A stretch of DNA of 33,793 nt from a virus. The DNA lies in the IMG/VR virus record IMGVR_UViG_3300037485_001152, positions 1 to 33,793 of that record, one strand, 5' to 3'. Below the pieces are notes generated by a model. The model had not been told where the DNA came from and did not search any database. It saw nothing but the letters and a program-made list of their open reading frames with translations. Both the position numbers and the translations under genes were made by a program. Position 1 is the first letter of the stretch; each line of letters opens with the position of its first letter. Below are positions 1 through 33,793 of the stretch, one piece after another.

Positions 1-127
1 TTTATGAACGATGATATGATATTCCCATTAAAGAAGATACAAGGTGACTTAAGATGGTTATGGAATAACATAAGCCATGACACACCTACTCATGAAGTCA
101 TAACAGTATTAAGAAAGGCAAATGAAG
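1..127. repeat. Terminal direct repeat (left copy) marking a circular assembly
   Basis: The first 127 bases are identical to 33667-33793. An exact overlap of 127 nt is what a de Bruijn assembler with k=127 leaves at the ends of a circular contig. A real short terminal redundancy or circular permutation gives the same picture. The polymerase-like gene reads in frame across the joint, which supports circularity. Confidence 0.93.
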
Positions 128-228
128 AATTGAATAACACAGATAAGTTTGAGAGTTTATTAGCAAAGATAGCTATTACAGGCTGGACTAACCTTAAAAT
201 GTTCCAGAGAAAAGAGAGTCAAGAATGA
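1..228 (+). CDS. C-terminal part of the polymerase-like replication protein that starts at 32260
   Basis: This is the end of a gene cut by the window edges. The ATG at 4 is codon 471 of the frame that opens at 32260 (33670 minus 32260 is 1410, a multiple of 3), so it is not an independent start. Joining 32260-33666 to 1-228 gives 544 residues. This part is the last 74 residues, mostly charged helix with no motif I recognise, lying beyond the catalytic-like core. The TGA stop overlaps the ATG of the next gene at 225, so translation of the following KGW gene is probably coupled. The reading-frame joining is seen in the sequence; the function is argued at 32260. Confidence 0.9.
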   Translation, partial: FMNDDMIFPLKKIQGDLRWLWNNISHDTPTHEVITVLRKANEELNNTDKFESLLAKIAITGWTNLKMFQRKESQE

Positions 229-2617: not shown

Positions 2618-2657
2618 ATACATCGCATAAATGTATGCGCAGAAAGGTTGGCATATA

Positions 2658-3521
2658 ATGTACATAAAATCCTTGTATTCAAATAACTGTGATGAGTGTT
2701 ATGAGAGAATTCATAAAGATGACAACATGTGGTGGACACGTGGGGGTATGGTAGCGAATATAGAGACTGCTGAGGTAGAACAACAGAAGGCAAACGTGCT
2801 CTGTATACCGTGTGCTAAGAAATTAGGTAAACCAAAGTTCACTGGAGTCTGTATCCCACCAAATCTTATTCCAAGAGTTGCGGCGAACTATCATCATAAT
2901 TCCAAGACCAAAGAACGCATTGCGAATAAAGTCTCTAAACTATTTGTGCTCTATAATCCAGCTGGAGAACGTGTTAAGATTAAGAACCTTCATAAATTCT
3001 GTCGTGATAACAATCTCGTGACGAGTTGCATGCACGGTCTAGTCTCTGGTCTTCGTCAAGAATATAAAGGCTGGACTGCTACAGGCAATAAACCAGTTAA
3101 ACGTCTTTATCGCTTTCTTGACCCAAGAGGTAACCTCGTTGAAACTCATAACCTATATGCTTTCTGTAATGCCAATAACCTAGTCCAGTCCTGTATGAGA
3201 CAACTAATCATTCTTAAGAACCAAAGCTCTCATAGAGGCTACACAAGAGCACCAGACCTGGGTCTTGTGCAGAGCACAAGCCTGGTTCCTGACGCCACAG
3301 TAGCCCTAGAACCTGTCCAGATAGAAAACCTGGGCAGTGGTGCATCCGAGAGACAGAACGTGCTAATGGAGCTCCAGGGAGCTAGAACAGCATATGCGCT
3401 ATCTATCAAGGCATCTGAGTTATCTGATAAGTTAGCTAATGAGGGTAAGGATGTGGAGTCTGCTCTTCTTCATGATATCAGTAAAGCACTTGAAGCTAGA
3501 GCATTATGTGTGTTGGTATGA
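2658..3521 (+). CDS. Zinc-knuckle protein with two KGW repeats
   Basis: The frame opens at 2631, but the ATG at 2658 has AAAGG upstream and the earlier ATG has none, so I use 2658 (287 residues). C11-x2-C14 and C49-x2-C52 form a zinc-binding pair. Two consecutive KGW repeats follow at about 95-140 (LFVLYNPAG, then IKNLHKFC, ending YKGWT) and 148-197 (YRFLDPRG, then NLYAFC, ending HRGYT). The last 85 residues are helical. The layout equals the 509 and 787 genes fused, plus one repeat. DNA or RNA binding is likely; no nuclease motif is visible. It ends in a 4-nt overlap with the next start. Confidence 0.82.
   Translation: MYIKSLYSNNCDECYERIHKDDNMWWTRGGMVANIETAEVEQQKANVLCIPCAKKLGKPKFTGVCIPPNLIPRVAANYHHNSKTKERIANKVSKLFVLYNPAGERVKIKNLHKFCRDNNLVTSCMHGLVSGLRQEYKGWTATGNKPVKRLYRFLDPRGNLVETHNLYAFCNANNLVQSCMRQLIILKNQSSHRGYTRAPDLGLVQSTSLVPDATVALEPVQIENLGSGASERQNVLMELQGARTAYALSIKASELSDKLANEGKDVESALLHDISKALEARALCVLV
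3264..3280. repeat. Palindrome CTTGTGC-AGA-GCACAAG
   Basis: A perfect 7-bp inverted repeat with a 3-nt loop, inside the 2658 gene. The same arms with loop TCA occur in the gap at 9404-9420. Confidence 0.6.
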
Positions 3522-3739
3522 CACCAGATAGATTTCAGACAGGACAATTGGTTGTCATTGACCCATATATCTCTAGAAATTATAAGATAGGAATATACAT
3601 TAGAAGAGATATTCGTATCTCACCGCTGTTTACAGAGCACTCTATACCTATCATTTACTCAATGAACATAGTGCTGGTTGATGAAAAGATAGAAGAATAT
3701 CTGGATTATATGCTGACTGAGTTAGACAATAAAGAATAA
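3518..3739 (+). CDS. Small hypothetical protein
   Basis: The frame also opens at 3506, but the ATG at 3518 overlaps the upstream stop as ATGA, which fits coupled translation. The 73 residues start MTPDRFQTGQLVVIDPYISRN, a beta-rich stretch, and end in an acidic helix. Nothing in it identifies a family. It lies between the zinc/KGW gene and the operator of the ribbon-helix-helix pair. Confidence 0.68.
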   Translation: MTPDRFQTGQLVVIDPYISRNYKIGIYIRRDIRISPLFTEHSIPIIYSMNIVLVDEKIEEYLDYMLTELDNKE

Positions 3740-3750
3740 GAACAATTTAA

Positions 3751-3768
3751 TATTATGAACTCATAATA
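3751..3768. promoter_or_regulatory. Perfect palindrome, probable operator of the ribbon-helix-helix pair
   Basis: TATTATGA-AC-TCATAATA is a perfect 8+2+8 inverted repeat ending 4 nt before the AAGGAGAT ribosome site of the gene at 3784. Small ribbon-helix-helix regulators commonly repress their own operon from such sites. A related everted palindrome (TCATAAT-G-ATTATGA) occurs at 10185-10199. Confidence 0.6.
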
Positions 3769-3783
3769 GAATAAGGAGATAAT

Positions 3784-3969
3784 ATGGCTAAGGAAAAGAA
3801 AGATATCAAGTATCGTATTGTGAGTGTAAGGGTGACTGAAGAAGAAGCATTGGTTTGGGAGAAGTCTGCTGTTGAACTAGCGACTATGCTTGGTAAACCA
3901 ATATCCTTCTCAGCATTCTTAAGACTGGTGATGAACACACATTGTAAGAAGGAGACTGTATCTGTATGA
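3784..3969 (+). CDS. Ribbon-helix-helix-like DNA-binding protein 1
   Basis: The protein has 61 residues. A basic N-terminus leads to a beta strand (YRIVSVRVT), then helix EEEALVWEKSAVELATML, a turn, and helix FSAFLRLVM. This is the order of a ribbon-helix-helix (MetJ/Arc-type) repressor. AAGGAGAT lies 6 nt before the ATG. Its stop overlaps the next gene's ATG, and that gene encodes a second protein of the same shape, so they may form a pair. The perfect palindrome at 3751-3768 suggests autoregulation. The fold is inferred from pattern, not from a search. Confidence 0.78.
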   Translation: MAKEKKDIKYRIVSVRVTEEEALVWEKSAVELATMLGKPISFSAFLRLVMNTHCKKETVSV

Positions 3970-4229
3970 CTAAGAAGACTAAACCAGGGCGTTTAGGGAA
4001 CTTAAACGCTGGGCATAAGAAGGAAATGGTATCTATTACGTTTAAGGTAAAGCAGTCTGAGTATGATGCTATTAATGAATCTAGAATAGCAATGGCAACT
4101 AAGTTTCCCGGCATGAAGTTCACAATCCAGGATTATGTCAGATTGCTATTGGAGTTCTCAGTCTTTGCTCACGAGAAGACAAAAGATGATCCAGAACAGT
4201 TTAGCGATATAGACCTTGGCTCTGCCTAG
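3966..4229 (+). CDS. Ribbon-helix-helix-like DNA-binding protein 2
   Basis: The protein has 87 residues. A basic, lysine-rich arm (MTKKTKPGRLGNLNAGHKK) leads to strand VSITFKVK, helix SEYDAINESRIAMATKF, a loop, and helix TIQDYVRLLLEFS, again the ribbon-helix-helix order, with an acidic tail. It is translationally coupled to the 3784 gene. It is the last + gene before the convergent terminator at 4237. It may heterodimerise with its neighbour or act as a second switch between early and late expression. Confidence 0.78.
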   Translation: MTKKTKPGRLGNLNAGHKKEMVSITFKVKQSEYDAINESRIAMATKFPGMKFTIQDYVRLLLEFSVFAHEKTKDDPEQFSDIDLGSA

Positions 4230-4236
4230 ATAAAAC

Positions 4237-4270
4237 AACGCCCTGAGTCTCGAAAGATTCCAGGGCGTTT
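4237..4270. terminator. Convergent (probably bidirectional) terminator
   Basis: AACGCCCTG and CAGGGCGTT pair over 9 bp around a 15-nt loop. A T tract follows on the + strand, and an AT-rich stretch (TTGTTTTA) follows on the - strand. It lies between the converging + and - gene blocks. A second, looser hairpin (CCTGACA and TGTCAGG, 4272-4307) follows. Confidence 0.85.
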
Positions 4271-4309
4271 GCCTGACACTATGTAGGAGGGATGTCTGGA
4301 TGTCAGGAC

Positions 4310-4675
4310 TTAGAGCTTAGCTACTTTATGTTTAGCTGTTTGAGTAACCATATTAACTGGGACTTTACAGTTCTGACAATGATCAACGAACATTGTCTGA
4401 ATGATATCGAGTTGTTCTTGAAGATGAGTGATCTGAGTCCTAAGAGAAGTATTTTCAGTGATAAGAACTTCAATTCTAGCTGTTAGTTCAATTACCTTAC
4501 TATCATTGAAATGATTTTCTTTACGTTCATCTTGAAGCAATTGCTGAAAGGTTGCTCTTACTTGTTCATCTCCGGATAATGATTGCTTCTGTCTAGTAGC
4601 GAAATAAGTGCCTAAAGCAGTTAAGCCGGAGGAACCAAGTATCGCTGTTATAATCTCTGGTATATTCATAATCAT
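4310..4675 (-). CDS. Membrane-anchored coiled-coil protein, lysis candidate
   Basis: The protein has 121 residues. A short N-terminal hydrophobic segment (ITAILGSSGLTALGTYF) is followed by a long heptad-rich helix at about 40-95, then a CxxC (CQNC) and a basic tail. It is the last gene of the leftward late block, where lysis genes often lie. An N-terminal membrane helix plus coiled coil fits an inner spanin or a holin-like accessory. A start 2 codons later (MNIPEI) is possible; neither has a strong ribosome site. No endolysin is next to it, so the lysis assignment is only a suggestion. Confidence 0.7.
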   Translation of the reverse strand: MIMNIPEIITAILGSSGLTALGTYFATRQKQSLSGDEQVRATFQQLLQDERKENHFNDSKVIELTARIEVLITENTSLRTQITHLQEQLDIIQTMFVDHCQNCKVPVNMVTQTAKHKVAKL

Positions 4676-4688
4676 TCAAAAGCTTTCT

Positions 4689-4982
4689 TTAAGTGGATTC
4701 AATGCTAATCTGAAATGAGTAATCGTCTAGACGATCCCCAACTGTTGTTATTCTACAAGTTACGTTATAGATTTCCCCGAGAGTACCCCCGGATATCCAG
4801 CAGTGAGCAACTGTTGCTGAATTCCATGGAGCATAAGGGCCTGTCCCAAGAGTTATTCCTGAGTCTAATATCCAATCAACTGAGTCAAGAGTATCGCCAC
4901 CATAGCACTTAAGTAACCATGGTCCCCAATTCACTGGATAATCTAGAATTGAATCAGGGTCTTTTGTGAATACTGTAATCAT
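4689..4982 (-). CDS. Small tail-associated domain protein (paralogue of the 5006 gene's C-terminus)
   Basis: The 97 residues match, in order, the C-terminal domain of the repeat protein encoded next to it: KDPDSILDYPVNWGPWL here and KDPDASRDYTFDFRPWL there. Both then end with an aromatic strand, W(C/H)..., a RVDD or RLDD motif and F.(I/L)SIE. Stand-alone copies of this beta-sandwich-like domain are common in phage tail regions. AAGGATA precedes the start. It probably decorates the fibre or tail tip, or helps the fibre assemble. Confidence 0.78.
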   Translation of the reverse strand: MITVFTKDPDSILDYPVNWGPWLLKCYGGDTLDSVDWILDSGITLGTGPYAPWNSATVAHCWISGGTLGEIYNVTCRITTVGDRLDDYSFQISIEST

Positions 4983-5005
4983 AATATTATCCTTAAATAG
5001 CCGGC

Positions 5006-6214
5006 TTAAGCGGCTTGTTCTATTGAGAGATTAAATGTGATATCATCGACTCTACCATCTCTGGTTCTACAATGCCAGGTCAATGGCAAATAGTCTCCAT
5101 TTTGGTCATATGATAGCCATGCAGTTGCTGTATGTTCTGTATATGACCATAGTGGTTGGTCATAGCCTATAGGTGCCACTAATTGAACGAATTCAAAAGT
5201 ATTGCCATTGAGCCATGGTCTGAAGTCAAATGTGTAATCACGACTAGCATCGGGATCCTTTTGAAGATAGATGGGAACATGTCTCTTTCCTATCTTAATG
5301 CTAGCATCAGCTATAAAGCCATCAACTGGAACAATAACATTGGATTGAGTCTCAACAGTCGATGTACCTTCTGATAGACAATTGAATATAACAGCTGTAA
5401 TAGAGTCGGACTGACACGTAGACGTACCTTCTGCTAGACCAGCTAGATAAGCTACTGGCTCAAACAGAGTATCAACAGCTGACGTACCTTCTACTAGACC
5501 AGCTAGATAAGCTACTGGCTCAAACAGAGTATCAACAGTTGATGTACCTTCTGCTAGACCAGCTAGATAGCATTCTGCCTCAAATATAGCATCAACAGCT
5601 GATGTACCTTCTGCTAGACCAGCTAGATAAGCTACTGGCTCAAATATAGCATCAACAGCTGATGTACCTTCTGCTAGACCAGCTAGATAAGCTACTGGCT
5701 GCAATAGAGCAGCTGCTGTAGAAGTTCCATGAGCTCTCCATATATGACCGGTCTCAGTTGAACCAGAGACCGTCATTGAGCTATTAGAAATAGTAAATGG
5801 TGAGAAATCTTGGAAGAAATCTGTAGTAATACTGCTACTAATAACAGTGATTGATGAAACACATGTAGCGAATGGAGAGAAATATAGATTATGATCTATT
5901 ATATCAGTGATAGCATCAACAGCTGATGTACCTTCTGATAGACCAGCTAGATAAGCTACTGGCTGCAATAGAGCATCAACAGTTGATGTGCCAGCTACTA
6001 TCTCCGGCAATACATCTAATACGGCATGAATTTCGATTAAAGAAGTTACATCTGATGTACCATTAATAATCCCGGATATGATATCAGCATAAACAACTAG
6101 TGAGTCTGCTGTTGATGTACCAGATGCGGTTCCATATATGCTGCCAGCTGCATCGTCGGCCAGAGCTATATTAAAACCACCTCCACCATTTCTTAGATTA
6201 ATATTAAAGGACAT
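5006..6214 (-). CDS. Repeat-rich tail fibre or tail appendage protein
   Basis: The protein has 402 residues. Eleven GTS motifs recur about every 20 residues, most in the form EGTSAVDAIFEPVAYLAGL. They lie in a short N-terminal set and a tight central array, interrupted at about residues 110-165 by a non-repeat beta-rich segment. The last ~85 residues (from KDPDASRDYTF) are the domain that also stands alone at 4689. AGGAGA lies 6 nt before the ATG. Repeated short beta units of this type build elongated phage fibres. Near-identical DNA repeats make the array length likely to vary by recombination. Confidence 0.8.
   Translation of the reverse strand: MSFNINLRNGGGGFNIALADDAAGSIYGTASGTSTADSLVVYADIISGIINGTSDVTSLIEIHAVLDVLPEIVAGTSTVDALLQPVAYLAGLSEGTSAVDAITDIIDHNLYFSPFATCVSSITVISSSITTDFFQDFSPFTISNSSMTVSGSTETGHIWRAHGTSTAAALLQPVAYLAGLAEGTSAVDAIFEPVAYLAGLAEGTSAVDAIFEAECYLAGLAEGTSTVDTLFEPVAYLAGLVEGTSAVDTLFEPVAYLAGLAEGTSTCQSDSITAVIFNCLSEGTSTVETQSNVIVPVDGFIADASIKIGKRHVPIYLQKDPDASRDYTFDFRPWLNGNTFEFVQLVAPIGYDQPLWSYTEHTATAWLSYDQNGDYLPLTWHCRTRDGRVDDITFNLSIEQAA
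5416..5730 (-). repeat. Tandem 60-bp coding repeat (about five units) in the fibre gene
   Basis: The unit recurs with an exact 60-nt period from 5416 to 5700 with a partial unit to 5730, encoding EGTS(A/T)VDAIFEPVAYLAGL. Units at 5581 and 5641 are identical over the full 60 nt. Another stretch of the same unit is at about 5912-5990. Confidence 0.95.
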
Positions 6215-9986: not shown

Positions 9987-10163
9987 TCAGGCAGAATGCA
10001 TAGGTAATAGCATTCTAGGTCTACCAGCTGGCACTGATAGTCTATTTTCTGGTTGAACTTGCAGATATCTAGTTGGAGTTATGGCGGCTACATGCAGTCC
10101 AAGCACTGCTGAGGAGACTGTCGATATACCTTCTGATAAACAATTGAATTCAATAATGCTCAT
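9987..10163 (-). CDS. 58-aa protein carrying a single degenerate fibre repeat
   Basis: This short frame starts at an ATG with AAAGGAAGAGG just upstream, one of the best ribosome sites in the region, and runs 58 residues. Its N-terminus, IIEFNCLSEGISTVSSAV, matches the end of the repeat array of the 402-aa fibre protein (VIFNCLSEGTSTVETQSNV). The rest (PTRYLQVQPENRLSVPAGRPRML) is basic and proline-rich. It could be a small fibre accessory or a fragment left by duplication of the fibre gene; the intact start signal favours expression. The antisense + frame at 10081-10272 is its shadow. Confidence 0.6.
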   Translation of the reverse strand: MSIIEFNCLSEGISTVSSAVLGLHVAAITPTRYLQVQPENRLSVPAGRPRMLLPMHSA

Positions 10164-21092: not shown

Positions 21093-21538
21093 GTTGGTTT
21101 CTTTCCGGTGGTCACATAAGTCTTAATCCACTCACCCAATTGGTCCATTAGTAACTTAGAGTTTCCAGCTTTACCTGTAGGCATAAATGCTCTTCCTGGT
21201 ATAAATATAGTCCCATTATTAAAGAACTTAGCATATGGCGCTGAGGCCCCTATCACTAGACTATTAAGCCCAGCTGTTTTGGCATATAGACTACCTATTA
21301 GCTTACCAGTTTCAATACCTAATACACCGTGTTTATATTTCAGTGTGCTAATAGCATTAGCCTTCCACTTGGTTCCTTCAGGTGTTCTGGTCTTATAGAA
21401 TGAGTCTTCCATTAACGTTATGAATTTCTTACCAGCTGGTTCTAGAACTGGCTGTAAGTTCTTTAGTCTAGTAGACATTGCTTTTAACTTAACAGTCAAT
21501 GCCTCTGGTGATGATCCTTGTTTAAACGTTAAACTCAT
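21089..21538 (-). CDS. Phage virion morphogenesis (tail completion, Mu gpG-like) protein
   Basis: The protein has 149 residues: a helical N-terminus, then TRTPEGTKWKANAISTL, GLGIETGKL-type segments, and the diagnostic YAKFFNNGTIFIPGRAFMPTG. The pattern YA..(F/H)..G....PGRAF(M/L)P is that of the phage virion morphogenesis family, which acts in tail completion or head-tail joining. The ATG overlaps the stop of the small KGW gene, and its own stop overlaps the tail-terminator start. Confidence 0.85.
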   Translation of the reverse strand: MSLTFKQGSSPEALTVKLKAMSTRLKNLQPVLEPAGKKFITLMEDSFYKTRTPEGTKWKANAISTLKYKHGVLGIETGKLIGSLYAKTAGLNSLVIGASAPYAKFFNNGTIFIPGRAFMPTGKAGNSKLLMDQLGEWIKTYVTTGKKPT

Positions 21539-21765
21539 AATGGCTTAGTCCAGCCTTTATGACATATTTGCGTTCCGAACGTCACTTCACGAAGAGCGTA
21601 ATATGATAATGATTTCTCTCTAGCGAATTTAGCCATATTCATGATGATAACTAGCTCTCTGTGTGGTGATATCAATGACCATCTCTTGCTGTTACCGTAT
21701 CGACTACATCCAGCGTAATTTAGCTTGACCGAATTGTGCTTGGCTAGGACTTGATAGAGTGCCAC
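21535..21765 (-). CDS. KGW-repeat protein 4, inserted in the head-tail module
   Basis: The frame can start at GTG 21765 (76 residues). A start nearer the repeat is possible because the 5' part overlaps the end of the 21704 gene. Residues 28-73 are a complete KGW repeat (RWSLISPHRE, then IIMNMAKFAREKSLS, ending HKGWTKP), matching the + strand copies. It has no nuclease domain. It ends in ATGA overlapping the tail-completion gene. A DNA-binding-like domain between structural genes looks like an insertion or the remnant of a homing element. The start is uncertain. Confidence 0.65.
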   Translation of the reverse strand: MALYQVLAKHNSVKLNYAGCSRYGNSKRWSLISPHRELVIIMNMAKFAREKSLSYYALREVTFGTQICHKGWTKPL

Positions 21766-22405: not shown

Positions 22406-23215
22406 TTAGTAATTTCTAACGACGACTTCATTTTTTCTTCCTCTTGAACTTCCTTTGCAAGACACCATTCTTGATGCCATCACAGTTTCTATTTTAAATT
22501 TCTTATAAAGATCTCGGATAAAAGATGTGTCGCTATTAGACAGCATAAAATAGCCTCCTTTTTCATTAATAGACGAGCAGAATTCCGCTAGTTTCTTTTG
22601 CTCTGTTTCTCCAAACCCAGAGCTATCATAGCCAGTAAACGTTTGATGATATGGAGGGTCTAGATAATAAAAATCATTCTTGATTATAGAAGATTTTTCA
22701 TATCCTTGATGCCGAATATCAACATCTTGGAGCACTGCTGAAACAAGTCTTAAATTAGTTTCATCTAGTATGATTGGATTAGTATATCTCCCCATTGGGA
22801 CATTATAATCTCCCTTGCTATTAACACGATACATCCCATTAAAACATGTTTTGTTAATATAAATAAAAAGAGCTGCTTTCTTCACAGAATCAGATTCTGT
22901 TGATAGCTGCTTTCGAGCTTCATAAAAATGATCTTTATTATGTGCAATTTCATGCAATTTCAATTCTTGGACAACAGCATCTGCATTATCTCTTACACAC
23001 ATAAATGCATTTACCAAACGTTCATTAACATCCGATAAATAAGATGATTTATTTCTTGTTGCAAAATATAAAGCACCCCCGCCCATAAAAAGTTCATGAT
23101 ATGAACCATAACTTTCTGGTAAGCGGCTGATCAGCTCCTGCAATATAGAACGTTTTCCTCCAACCCATTTAAGAAATGGTTTTGCTTGAACGTCTGTCTT
23201 TTTTAAAATCTCCAT
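22406..23215 (-). CDS. dam: Dam-type adenine-N6 DNA methyltransferase (D12 class)
   Basis: I start at ATG 23215, which has GGGAGG 8 nt upstream, giving 269 residues; the frame opens earlier at 23308. The protein has PFLKWVGGKR at 13-22, ELFMGGGALYF at 41-51 (SAM-binding motif I), NKTCFNGMYRVN at 121-132 and the catalytic DPPY at 186-189. This is the order of Dam/DpnM enzymes, which methylate adenine, typically in GATC. It lies in a different base context (T- and A-rich, fewer CTAG) from the structural genes around it and has its own promoter-like sequence, so it is probably an acquired gene protecting the genome from host restriction. Target specificity is not shown by the sequence. Confidence 0.93.
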   Translation of the reverse strand: MEILKKTDVQAKPFLKWVGGKRSILQELISRLPESYGSYHELFMGGGALYFATRNKSSYLSDVNERLVNAFMCVRDNADAVVQELKLHEIAHNKDHFYEARKQLSTESDSVKKAALFIYINKTCFNGMYRVNSKGDYNVPMGRYTNPIILDETNLRLVSAVLQDVDIRHQGYEKSSIIKNDFYYLDPPYHQTFTGYDSSGFGETEQKKLAEFCSSINEKGGYFMLSNSDTSFIRDLYKKFKIETVMASRMVSCKGSSRGRKNEVVVRNY

Positions 23216-23267
23216 AAAACAACCTCCCAGACTAGGAATGCACCTTTCAGAACAGTCATCTGTGATT

Positions 23268-23296
23268 AGTATATCACTTGGATGGCTTCTCTTTAA
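23268..23296 (-). promoter_or_regulatory. Candidate promoter of the methyltransferase gene
   Basis: The minus strand reads TTAAAG, 17 nt, TATACT, about 55 nt before the start at 23215. It overlaps the end of the 23831 gene. Confidence 0.5.
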
Positions 23297-23831
23297 TAGT
23301 GGCAGCATCTAGTTTCTTATTAAGAGCATCAATCGTCTTCATCATTCCAGCTAGAATAGCTGCCATATCACCTGAAGAGTCTTTCGGCTGTAAGTCTTGA
23401 ACTAGTTTAGCCGCTTTAGTAGCCGCTTCCTCTTCTATAGTGCCAAGACTATTCAGTGTCTTAACTGAGACTAATGGTTTAATTCCTCTAAAGTTACTTT
23501 CATGAAAGACTTTAGATACTGAGGATGGGTATGTATTAGCGTTATTCTTAAGTGGGTTCTCTTTAATGAAGCGCCCAAGAAGCATCTTATAACGTTGTTC
23601 TGCGGCTTTAACCAATTGGGGTTCAGTCTCTATTCTATCTTCAAGTGAAGCGAGGTCTGTCTCATAGATTTGTATTTGATGAGTGCCAGGCCCATATGCT
23701 CTACCATTATTAAGAAGAATAGGAGAAACGTTATCTCTTACTGTTACTTCAACTAATAGTCTATTAACTGGTTCTGCATATTCAGCCGTATGTCCATGTG
23801 GGGTATGTCTATCGAAGCGTGTCTGAGCCAT
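23274..23831 (-). CDS. Hypothetical protein downstream of capsid/HNH insertion
   Basis: I start at ATG 23831 (MAQTRFDRHTPHGH, 185 residues); a TTG start at 23849 is possible. The ribosome site is weak. The N-terminal half is strand-rich with GRAYGPGTHQIQIYETDLASLEDRIE, the rest is helical, and the C-terminus is a lysine-rich coiled coil. It lies directly downstream of the capsid once the HNH insertion is ignored, so it may be a head-associated protein. No family recognised. Confidence 0.72.
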   Translation of the reverse strand: MAQTRFDRHTPHGHTAEYAEPVNRLLVEVTVRDNVSPILLNNGRAYGPGTHQIQIYETDLASLEDRIETEPQLVKAAEQRYKMLLGRFIKENPLKNNANTYPSSVSKVFHESNFRGIKPLVSVKTLNSLGTIEEEAATKAAKLVQDLQPKDSSGDMAAILAGMMKTIDALNKKLDAATIKEKPSK

Positions 23832-24024: not shown

Positions 24025-24522
24025 CTAGATACGATTATAAGTATAGTCTATCCATACCTTTTTCCAAGTTCTTCCTGTCAGGACGTTGTTAATGGCAGAT
24101 CGACTTAGTGTCGGGTATAATAATAGTAGCTCATCTGTGTTTATGCCGGAATCCCTTTTAGAGTGTATGTCTATGACATCCTTCTCTTTAAGTTTAGCCT
24201 TAGGATTATTAGCTCCGACATGTCTAGCACTACGACCCTTCTTTACTTTATCACTCATATTTCCTTGATGTGTATCTAAGAACAAATGATTAATATTAAC
24301 GCATGCCGAATTATCGCATTTATGACAGACGCATAACTTATCTGGAATTATTCCATTGACCAGTTCCCAAAGCGCTCGTGTCACTAACCAAAGCTTTCCA
24401 TCGTGGCCACGCAGTCTTCCATAACCACCGTCGATGCCACTCTTAAACCAATTATGACACCCGGTTTTAGTGTCTAATTTCCAGCCGCTATTAATTCGCT
24501 CTAACAGTGTTTTTCTTGCCAT
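24025..24522 (-). CDS. HNH homing-type endonuclease
   Basis: I start at ATG 24522, which has CAGGAG 9 nt upstream (165 residues); the frame opens at 24546. Residues 66-80, CHKCDNSACVNINHL, are the HNH_3-type core with its metal-binding cysteines and histidines. The sequence continues FLDTHQGNMSDKVKKGR, typical of phage-borne free-standing HNH enzymes. The C-terminal third (NPKAKLKEKDVIDIHS, then SRSAINNVLTGRTWKKV) is a DNA-binding helix-turn-helix tail. It sits between capsid and tail genes, bounded by a terminator on each side, as expected of a mobile intron-less homing gene. It would cut DNA of related phages near this locus. Confidence 0.92.
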   Translation of the reverse strand: MARKTLLERINSGWKLDTKTGCHNWFKSGIDGGYGRLRGHDGKLWLVTRALWELVNGIIPDKLCVCHKCDNSACVNINHLFLDTHQGNMSDKVKKGRSARHVGANNPKAKLKEKDVIDIHSKRDSGINTDELLLLYPTLSRSAINNVLTGRTWKKVWIDYTYNRI

Positions 24523-24572
24523 ATAACAATCTCCTGGCACTATCATAGCATACCCGATTATAGCTTTAAAGC

Positions 24573-28100: not shown

Positions 28101-28129
28101 AATACTAAATAGTGCCGTTCATTGAATTA

Positions 28130-28204
28130 TTGCAGGAGCCAGATTTGAACTGACGACCTTATGGGTATGAACCATATGAGATAACCATACTTCTCTACCC
28201 TGCT
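28130..28204 (-). tRNA. tRNA-Met(CAT), initiator-like
   Basis: On the minus strand 75 nt fold as a full cloverleaf: acceptor AGCAGGG with TCCTGCA, D arm GAGA/TCTC with GG in the loop, anticodon arm TATGG-TTCATAC-CCATA (anticodon CAT), 5-nt variable loop AGGTC, T arm GTCAG-TTCAAAT-CTGGC, and discriminator A. CCA is not encoded. Position 1 does not pair with 72 (A-A) and the D stem has A11-T24, both initiator features. The 3' third follows the E. coli tRNA-fMet sequence closely (AAGGTCGTC-N-GTTCAAATC-N-GGC). It keeps two of the three G-C pairs of the initiator anticodon stem. It lies between portal and protease genes. Confidence 0.9.
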
Positions 28205-28230
28205 AATATAAATATATGCTAGCAGGGTAG
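28195..28230. promoter_or_regulatory. Inverted repeat covering the tRNA 5' end
   Basis: TAGCAGGGTAG and CTACCCTGCTA are perfect 11-bp arms 14 nt apart. One arm is tRNA bases -1 to 10, the other is its leader. In the precursor RNA this hairpin would compete with the acceptor stem. Confidence 0.8.
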
Positions 28231-31913: not shown

Positions 31914-31918
31914 ACCTT

Positions 31919-31926
31919 TAAGTATA
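31919..31926 (-). promoter_or_regulatory. TATACTTA motif at the head of the late operon
   Basis: The minus strand reads TATACTTAAAGG 5 nt before the ATG of the 63-aa gene, the closest placement of this motif to a start codon. Confidence 0.45.
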
Positions 31927-32076
31927 GATGATAAGACAATACTATTAATGCTCTCTTAATACCTATCAAGACTTCTCTACTCTCTAAGAATACGAGTACT
32001 ATACATGTATATGTTGCTCAAACCAGCCCTGTTTAAAACAATCACCAATAAAAATAGACACTTGAGCACCACCAAA

Positions 32077-32117
32077 ACCATACACATTGAAAACTACCCC
32101 TTGAAATCATTGAGGAA
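32077..32117. repeat. Upstream element shared by two + operons (copy 2)
   Basis: ACCATACAC (32077-32085) and CCCTTGAAATCATTGAGGAA (32098-32117), matching 1344-1377. The 20-mer differs at one base from copy 1. Confidence 0.6.
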
Positions 32118-32235
32118 TTTGGTTCAAGAAACCCTTACAACTGTTTTTTACACACCGAGGTTTTTGCATGAGAAATATATATTTAATGTTTATTTAAGAT
32201 TTATTAAATAGTTTATAGTTTTACTGTTTCTGGTG

Positions 32236-32244
32236 TATACTTAT
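32236..32244 (+). promoter_or_regulatory. TATACTTAT motif upstream of the replication gene
   Basis: TATACTTAT lies 15 nt before the start at 32260, with AAGAGGA between. No TTGACA-like box at 16-18 nt. Possible -10 core. Confidence 0.5.
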
Positions 32245-32259
32245 AGTAAGAGGAAATAA

Positions 32260-33793
32260 ATGACCGCTCTTAAACAATATCAATGCAACTATAAATCGAT
32301 AATCACAAAACTCAACGAGTATGTGAACGACCTACAAGGGCTTACACCATCTCAAAAAGAAACGAGAGGTATCCGTGTTGGTTTAGCTTTTCATATTCTT
32401 GTTGAGCTTCAACTTAGACACACCAGGCCAAGACATAATACTCGTATATACAAAATTGGCATATCGTCTGAGCTAGCGAAAGAACTATTTGGTAAAACAT
32501 ACACTGAACTTATCCAGGCCATGGTCGATACTGGCATTCTCTCTTTAAGAGATAATCACTGTGCTGGAAGAAACTGCCGTGGATACAGTGTTGATTTAAC
32601 AAATCATGAAAAAGAGCCTGTATGGCTAATCAACGATGAACATGTTCATTTTAAAAAGAAGATATATGACAACAAGGAGACAAATAGAATGCACATGGCT
32701 ATCAAACGAAATGACCTGCTTGAATATATGAAACCAACTATATTCAACATTGAACTTACACCATCTTCAATCCCGATGGAAATTCTTGGTGAGTATCCTT
32801 TACAAATCAAAGAGTTCTGCACCTGGAAATCACCAACAGAAAAGACATATGCCAAGAAAGCCGCCTTTCTTGTTATGAACAAAGATATGTCCCAGTGGAT
32901 CCCTCCTACAAACTCCCCTCGCTTCTCTTTATCTCAGAACGGAAACAGAATGTATCATACCTACACCTGTTGCCCAAAGACAATGAAGTCGTTTATCAAG
33001 ATTGATGGAGAGAATATAGTTCAATTTGATATCCGCTCTTGTCATCCATTCTTCTCTTTCGTAGCAACCGGCAATCAAGAATTTCTAAATCTATATCATA
33101 CAAAAGATATATATCAAGAAGCTGTCAATTTCAAATTCAAAGGAAAAGATGTCCCAGTTGATGCTAGACAAATTGTAAAAGAAGAGTGGTCGGCATGGCT
33201 CAATAATCACACTGGATACGATTATGAAATTGGTGAGTGGTTTCTACAAGAATATCCAGCATATTACTATGCTATTAAGCAGTTTAAGAAAGAGATGGGT
33301 AAAACCTTATATCTTAAATGGGTTGAAATGGAGAACCAACTTATCAAAAAGACCATCTATCCGCTTCTTATAGAGCGCAATGTTAAGTTCATAGACGCAC
33401 ACGATGGCTTTGATGTCCCTGAAAGCCAAACCAGACTTGTTCTTGAAGCACTTGAAGTCTATAAAGCAAACAATGATATCAACTCTATTCCAGACTTTAA
33501 ATACGGCAACCCTCTTGTCGGGATACCAGAAGAAAAATGGATGCCTCTTGCTGGCGCTACACAGGGGCTAGAATTCTCGCAAGCCTCTGAATCTATACAG
33601 GAGCCCATCCAGCAACTAGAAGCGATTGTAGAGGCTCCTGTGAGCTTAGAAGATATTATGGAGGATTTTATGAACGATGATATGATATTCCCATTAAAGA
33701 AGATACAAGGTGACTTAAGATGGTTATGGAATAACATAAGCCATGACACACCTACTCATGAAGTCATAACAGTATTAAGAAAGGCAAATGAAG
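32260..33793 (+). CDS. Polymerase-like replication protein (TV-Pol / superfamily-A-like), continues at 1-228
   Basis: The ATG at 32260 has AGAGGA 6 nt upstream. The frame is open to the window end and closes at 228 after the joint (544 residues). Residues 35-115 are a winged-helix-like domain ending AGRNCRGYSVDL. Then come NRMYHTYTCCPKTMKSF with VQFDIRSCHPFFSF (Asp257, motif-A-like), ARQIVKEEW (Arg303-x3-Lys307, motif-B-like) and FIDAHDGFDVP (His381-Asp382, motif-C-like). HD(G/S/E)F is the second catalytic aspartate site of family A DNA polymerases and T7 RNA polymerase. The same reduced core defines the TV-Pol family of mobile elements. It is the only replication-like gene seen, so it probably primes and/or copies the genome. 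Assignment by motif order, not by search. Confidence 0.7.
   Translation, partial: MTALKQYQCNYKSIITKLNEYVNDLQGLTPSQKETRGIRVGLAFHILVELQLRHTRPRHNTRIYKIGISSELAKELFGKTYTELIQAMVDTGILSLRDNHCAGRNCRGYSVDLTNHEKEPVWLINDEHVHFKKKIYDNKETNRMHMAIKRNDLLEYMKPTIFNIELTPSSIPMEILGEYPLQIKEFCTWKSPTEKTYAKKAAFLVMNKDMSQWIPPTNSPRFSLSQNGNRMYHTYTCCPKTMKSFIKIDGENIVQFDIRSCHPFFSFVATGNQEFLNLYHTKDIYQEAVNFKFKGKDVPVDARQIVKEEWSAWLNNHTGYDYEIGEWFLQEYPAYYYAIKQFKKEMGKTLYLKWVEMENQLIKKTIYPLLIERNVKFIDAHDGFDVPESQTRLVLEALEVYKANNDINSIPDFKYGNPLVGIPEEKWMPLAGATQGLEFSQASESIQEPIQQLEAIVEAPVSLEDIMEDFMNDDMIFPLKKIQGDLRWLWNNISHDTPTHEVITVLRKANE
33667..33793. repeat. Terminal direct repeat (right copy)
   Basis: Identical to 1-127. Any annotation of 33667-33793 duplicates the left end. 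Confidence 0.93.

Follow-up and report, generated by a model that had tools for sequence, protein, structure and literature searches.

The window, that is, the whole 33,793-nucleotide stretch of viral DNA analyzed here (IMG/VR record IMGVR_UViG_3300037485_001152), encodes across its ends a 544-aa protein that on balance we read as an exonuclease-less superfamily-A DNA polymerase joined to a winged helix, which probably primes at the phage origin and works with the host replisome. A preliminary description had proposed a reduced superfamily-A core, and this was borne out by hidden Markov model (HMM) comparison, two Foldseek searches, and a profile match to the divPolA2 polymerases.

The record carries an exact 127-bp direct repeat at both ends (1–127 identical to 33667–33793). 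As 127 bp is a usual maximum assembly word length, the window was taken as a circular assembly, most likely of 33,666 bp, in which the end repeat is most likely an assembly word overlap rather than a biological terminal repeat. Joining 32260–33666 in frame to 1–228 reproduced the gene described earlier across the contig ends, with 544 codons and a stop. The 5′ part is an open frame at 32260–33793 (plus strand, residues 1–511) containing the entire polymerase core, and the 3′ end runs through the end repeat and over the contig join at 1–228 (plus strand, residues 470–544 and the stop). The core, to about residue 405, is encoded on a single unbroken stretch, the frame staying open to residue 511 at the contig end, and is thus independent of the join. 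The ATG is preceded by AAGAGGA, a good ribosome-binding site.

Domains were assigned from a 25-sequence alignment and from the predicted structure (all coordinates on the plus strand). The winged-helix-like N-terminal domain, residues 40–112 (32377–32595), was recognized from alignments and modeled secondary structure, and contains the invariant residues G78, Y81, G103, and Y109. A beta-hairpin (NGNRMYHTYT, 32932–32970) carries the invariant R230 and T236 and aligns with GGRMY of divPolA2. Motif A, FDIRSCHPFF (residues 256–265, 33025–33054), provides the predicted metal ligand D257, and H262 occupies the ribonucleotide-gate position, the counterpart of E710 in E. coli Pol I (PMC7581432); D257 and P263 are invariant. 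D283-I-Y285 (33106–33114) aligns with DPY of divPolA2, and Y285 is invariant; D283 is the probable conserved fingers Asp, assigned by alignment only, and Asp is missing there from most of the huge-phage relatives introduced below. Motif B with helix O, R303QIVK307 followed by EEWSAWLNN (33166–33207), lies on a modeled helix (302–315) and holds the invariant K307. Motif C, DAHDGF (residues 379–384, 33391–33420), places the invariant H381-D382 in a modeled hairpin between strands 378–380 and 383–387, and F328, P333, K343, and E358 are invariant as well. The residues named in the preliminary description for motifs A, B, and C were therefore all found in place. For motif B, the R-x3-K itself stood and its canonical continuation did not: the aromatic residues and Gly that follow it in PolA and in the huge-phage relatives (Y..FG) are replaced in the window protein by S311 and N315-N316. 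The family-A core is likely catalytically competent. A P-loop reading of AKELFGKT (residues 73–80) was rejected, as this segment belongs to the winged helix and its conservation is not that of a P-loop.

AlphaFold was run on the window protein with 24 relatives. The resulting model has an overall pLDDT of 56, with the palm and fingers (240–405) mostly at 62–91. In a Foldseek search against the PDB, family-A DNA polymerases filled ranks 1–23 (probability 1.00 and E 2.5e-4 for the best), among them apicoplast PolA (E 2.5e-4), Taq, Klenow, Pol theta, and T7 DNA polymerase, and the first mitochondrial RNA polymerase appeared at rank 43 (E 0.64). Global TM-scores were low, about 0.3–0.4, and together with the weak model they speak against our reading. 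The relative L037 gave a better model (pLDDT 90, pTM 0.84), for which apicoplast PolA, Taq, and Pol theta again came first and mitochondrial RNA polymerases followed from rank 22 (E 0.0095). Compared with viral models, its best named matches were a 'putative DNA polymerase I' (47%, TM 0.9) and divPolA2-type proteins, among them the 'DNA polymerase' of Barba31A. Both proteins were thus placed with family-A DNA polymerases. In the window model, the D257 strand is followed by helices, the helix 302–315 with R303 and K307, a long helix (350–372), and the H381-D382 hairpin, the order of elements expected for a family-A palm into which fingers are inserted. The suggestion of a winged-helix-like N-terminus was likewise supported, the order helix-strand-helix-helix-strand-strand being modeled both in the window protein (helix 40–53, strand 63–69, helices 70–77 and 81–90, strands 95–98 and 106–112) and in its relative; the pLDDT was about 39–73 over residues 40–112 of the former and mostly 73–96 over the 54–121 block of L037. 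N-terminal to the hairpin, L037 has helices at 138–153, 163–173, 180–188, and 195–209, and the corresponding window region is of low confidence.

Searched alone, the window protein had no significant match in Pfam, PHROG, or PDB sequences, and the PF00476 model matched neither it nor any of the 24 relatives. A tblastn search of 50,697 phage records yielded one match, in an uncultured huge phage of 636 kb (24% identity, residues 68–387, E 7e-4). Relatives of that protein occur in four further huge phages (the matches of LR756501 and LR756503 being identical). An alignment-based scan of IMG/VR gave 33 loci on contigs often longer than 90 kb, the largest 476 kb. The family members include proteins of LR756502, LR745206, LR756501, and LR756504, the IMG/VR loci L009–L041, and L001 and L004–L007; the BFVD entry A0A8D9FR19, 'putative DNA polymerase I', belongs to the same huge-phage family. 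An HMM of the relatives built without the window protein scored it at 60.8 bits (E 5e-18, Z=1000) and reported 0 of 2000 shuffled copies, so the similarity is not due to chance. No close relative turned up when the window protein or pieces of it served as queries in pattern scans of IMG/VR and of GTDB genomes, which rely on exact 8-mer seeds that distant homologs escape, and a genome scan with the member L007 as query found no relative. PHROG 15971, 'DNA polymerase I', matched just one relative (E 0.002) and for this reason was not taken as proof. Terminase relatives in IMG/VR, looked up for the neighbors of terL in related phages, were only 23–31% identical, and the polymerase family is carried by none of them.

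The huge-phage proteins share the domain order of the window protein (winged helix, hairpin Arg, and motifs A, B, and C) and the invariant residues, at about 20% identity. Their consensus reads YGRMHTNFT, DIKNSQP, RxxxKExTYKVLFG, and TVHDS; the window protein differs at YGRMHTNFT, DIKNSQP, KxxxYKVLFG, and HDS, and has a 140-aa C-terminal extension that they lack. Most of the relatives are on contigs of huge phages. In a palm-only tree, it was the sister of the entire huge-phage group (98/87) on a branch of 4.46 changes per column, and its exact place is unsure because the branch is so long. No other family member is so divergent, and none of the others was seen in the complete genome of a small phage. 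With about 390–460 aa, a winged helix, and a family-A core, the huge-phage proteins merit a family name of their own. Without a Pfam family and with next to nothing in PHROGs, they are overlooked when giant phages are routinely annotated.

PolB was present in nine of ten huge-phage records and a DnaB-like helicase in eight. In six of the ten (LR756504, LR745206, LR756502, LR756511, and two IMG/VR records), the homolog was located within about 10–25 kb of the DnaB-like helicase gene, and in all of these except LR756504 PolB (PolA in LR756511) was also near. The huge-phage members thus keep replication company as an addition to a replicase, and are not the main replicase there, since PolB is present. 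In LR756511, a 595-kb phage, the L007 member (3506–4669) overlaps by 4 bp a gene for a 428-aa PolA (4666–5952), placing two distinct family-A enzymes in one operon. A lack of DnaG primase was considered as an argument for priming in these phages and was set aside as mixed: the DnaG N-terminal domain (DNAG_N) had no match in the ten huge phages, and Toprim_2 matched in six of them.

In the 33.7-kb window genome, searches covering all but some of the small proteins found no helicase-type consensus P-loop, primase, ligase, recombinase, or second polymerase, in agreement with the earlier view of a phage without recognizable helicase, primase, or ligase; a small SSB-like protein may have escaped recognition. 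The polymerase gene leads a plus-strand group extending from 32260 to 4229, in which the downstream genes are small and encode three KGW proteins, a CxxC zinc protein, and two short proteins resembling ribbon-helix-helix regulators. Small proteins ending in KGW are encoded at 225–518, 787–1188, and 2631–3521 (plus strand) and at 21535–21765 (minus strand), the last within the structural module. The three plus-strand copies match residues ~196–259 of the phrog_2081 HNH endonuclease without its nuclease part, and the 296-aa KGW protein contains two such units. The suggestion in the preliminary description that the zinc and KGW proteins could partner the polymerase is conjectural, as is its proposal that the enzyme itself starts and copies the genome. 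The minus strand carries the structural module, with a Mu-type portal, a protease, and a major head protein. Also on this strand, genes for a D12-class adenine methyltransferase and an HNH endonuclease (22406–23308 and 24025–24546) lie within the structural module, and a tRNA-Met (cat) gene (28129–28205) is located between the portal and protease genes. A tail-adaptor-like gene at 5006–6214 (minus strand) contains 60-nt tandem repeats (repeating AEGTSAVDAIFEPVAYLAGL), part of the unit recurs near 10117–10149 in the stretch 9987–10163, and the product is possibly a variable tail protein.

Upstream of the polymerase gene lies an AT-rich intergenic region (31914–32259). The cumulative GC skew has its minimum there, which may mirror gene strand only, and the region is a candidate control region or origin. 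A 21-bp imperfect palindrome (CCCTTGAAATCATTGAGGAAT / CCCTTGAAATCATTRAGGAAT) occurs within it at 32098–32118 (plus strand) and again at 1358–1378, two copies with 0.01 expected. Each copy precedes a gene group on the plus strand by 110–142 bp, with a TATACT-like box, making the element a candidate operator or initiator site.

In the reading that we prefer, D257 and D382 in the palm and fingers would bind two metals, K307 and R303 would bind the incoming nucleotide, and the template would be contacted by R230. Phage DNA would be held by the tethered winged helix, so that synthesis of the first DNA strand or of a primer could take place at a phage origin, perhaps beside the enzyme's own gene. 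The host DnaB helicase, SSB, Pol III, and ligase, invoked because the phage has no recognizable ones, would then take over bulk copying. Covalent attachment of a winged helix to the core would be a simple, testable way to start chains without a separate template-holding partner. A more far-reaching version, in which a one-protein initiator and primase-polymerase both recognizes the origin and makes the first strand for a tailed phage of 33.7 kb lacking its own helicase and primase, and the huge-phage family primes beside PolB and DnaB, is rather doubtful.

Many small phages without polymerases have their genomes started and copied wholly by the host replisome. The same could apply here if the protein were a working family-A DNA polymerase confined to primer extension, in repair, gap filling, or recombination, and this we consider unlikely. 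Such a role would agree with CcPol, a polymerase that merely extends primers when its partner MP is lacking (PMC7581432), with the coexistence of the huge-phage relatives with PolB, and with the suggestion of Yutin et al. that divPolA2 acts in repair, PolB being the replicase in those phages (PMC11348598). The window phage, however, has no other recognized replication gene for it to complement, the polymerase gene heads a plus-strand group of early type, and the added winged-helix domain fits initiation better than repair. Loss of catalysis, leaving a degenerate polymerase retained as a DNA-binding or replication-initiator protein, is the least probable of the readings weighed. The altered helix O (S311, N315-N316), the S-C-H in motif A in place of N-S-Q, and the very long branch would fit it, and probably inactive relatives of RRM type are known in similar elements (PMC10061031). 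The fingers helix has also given up the aromatic and Y-G positions that are typical of active family-A enzymes (S311, N315-N316), and the gate Glu is His; this weighs against our preferred reading too, as activity may be altered or lost, although divPolA2 and Ma-LMM01 likewise have N and H at these positions. Against degeneration, the altered positions recur in divPolA2 and Ma-LMM01, and both metal-binding Asp residues, the motif C His, R303, K307, and R230 are kept at 20% overall identity, which would be unexpected had catalysis been lost.

The product is likely DNA rather than RNA. In T7 RNA polymerase, the gate and fingers residues are Gly542 and Tyr639, with H262 and N315 as their window counterparts, so the small gate residue and fingers Tyr of T7-like enzymes are both absent; it is from the bulky H262 opposite Gly542, N315 opposite Tyr639, and the fold ranking that we infer DNA synthesis. 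The alternative raised in the preliminary description, an RNA polymerase acting on phage promoters, was accordingly disfavored. In its fuller form, a phage enzyme of the T7 superfamily would transcribe phage genes or supply RNA primers, its winged helix recognizing promoters such as the 21-bp element, and this appears quite improbable. It draws on the relationship of TV-Pols and divPolA2 also to T7-like and mitochondrial RNA polymerases (PMC2579912, PMC11348598), on the mitochondrial RNA polymerases in the fold list of L037, on the HDS of the relatives, which matches T7 RNA polymerase, and on the position of the 21-bp element upstream of two plus-strand gene groups. Yet the window model ranked DNA polymerases far ahead (2.5e-4 vs 0.64 for mitochondrial RNA polymerase), and the 544-aa protein has no large N-terminal RNA-polymerase domains.

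Among known systems, divPolA2, found in barbaviruses, ICP1-like Vibrio phages, and others (PMC11348598), has a small PolA palm without exonuclease, as does the window protein. An alignment of AUR84708 and nine relatives was made here, and with hhalign its profile matched that of the family at 97% (E 1.1e-10), with the hairpin Arg and all three motifs (A, B, and C) in register; the window protein alone scored 13.5 bits with the divPolA2 HMM (best shuffle 8.4). The two share motif A as D-[FI]-R-x-x-H-P, motif B as K-x7-N, and DPY/DIY in the fingers. In contrast, the N-terminal domain of divPolA2 is unlike that of the window protein, the C-terminal VMxxAYxxVVGxxxNC conserved in the divPolA2 alignment is absent after motif C in the window protein and the huge-phage family, and divPolA2 phages also encode PolB, whereas the window has no recognized second polymerase. 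In some Vibrio phages, the divPolA2 gene adjoins a putative DNA helicase gene (qdvp001_146) or a winged-helix gene (NVP1101O_132) (L121, L117). We know of no function for either divPolA2 or the huge-phage family.

TV-Pols were defined by a thumb made up of two antiparallel helices that come before the hairpin, an absolutely conserved Arg in that hairpin ahead of motif A, a palm with two Asp residues, and fingers with Asp and RxxxK, and their linkage to a D5 helicase, resolvase, or integrase is common but not universal (Iyer et al. 2008, PMC2579912). The window protein shares the minimal core with the TV-Pols (MAP_030 of Ma-LMM01, Sputnik V13, and CcPol), which include stand-alone forms: it has the palm residues D257 and D382, R230 in a hairpin aligned with divPolA2 and MAP_030, and R303-K307 with, by alignment, D283 in the fingers. 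Motif A CH, K-x7-N, and HDG are further features in common with the protein of Microcystis phage Ma-LMM01. His at motif A +5 (SCHP in the window, ALHP in divPolA2, KCHA in Ma-LMM01) and Asn at helix O K+8 (WLNN, MFNA, and VING, respectively) are both lacking in the huge-phage relatives. It differs in having a winged helix as its N-terminal domain, and no D5 helicase, resolvase, or integrase was found in the window. MAP_030 was chosen by its motifs and neighboring transposases as the putative TV-Pol of Ma-LMM01, a phage named in PMC2579912; it scored -2.3 bits with the family HMM, a single-protein comparison of low power, and searches of plasmids and phages with MAP_030 did not yield enough relatives to build a TV-Pol profile. 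Of the earlier label 'TV-Pol-type', the defining motif set and the Ma-LMM01-like details (DxxxCH, K-x7-N, HDG) held, and a significant profile match to MAP_030 was not obtained; the relatives demonstrated are the huge-phage family and divPolA2. With all motif parts present, but the thumb region of low confidence and no significant profile link, the protein is called TV-Pol/divPolA2-like rather than a proven member.

The fold of canonical family A (PF00476) is present in the window protein, though the family model is unmatched, and the canonical gate Glu E710, helix-O F762, and Y766-G767 are replaced by H262, S311, and N315-N316. CcPol-MP of SCCmec, in which CcPol keeps the equivalents of E710 and F762 for dNTP choice (Bebel et al. 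2020, PMC7581432), was the only complex of a TV-Pol-type enzyme shown to prime DNA as of that report. There, a TV-Pol-type core primes with a DNA-binding partner (PMC7581432, PMC10061031). The window protein likewise combines a family-A core with a DNA-binding module, and by this analogy de novo priming is conceivable for it, though we hold it with some doubt. CcPol retains the gate Glu and helix-O Phe and works with a helicase of the same operon, in both of which the window differs, and its partner MP is a separate OB-fold protein, whereas the window phage carries a winged helix in the same chain.
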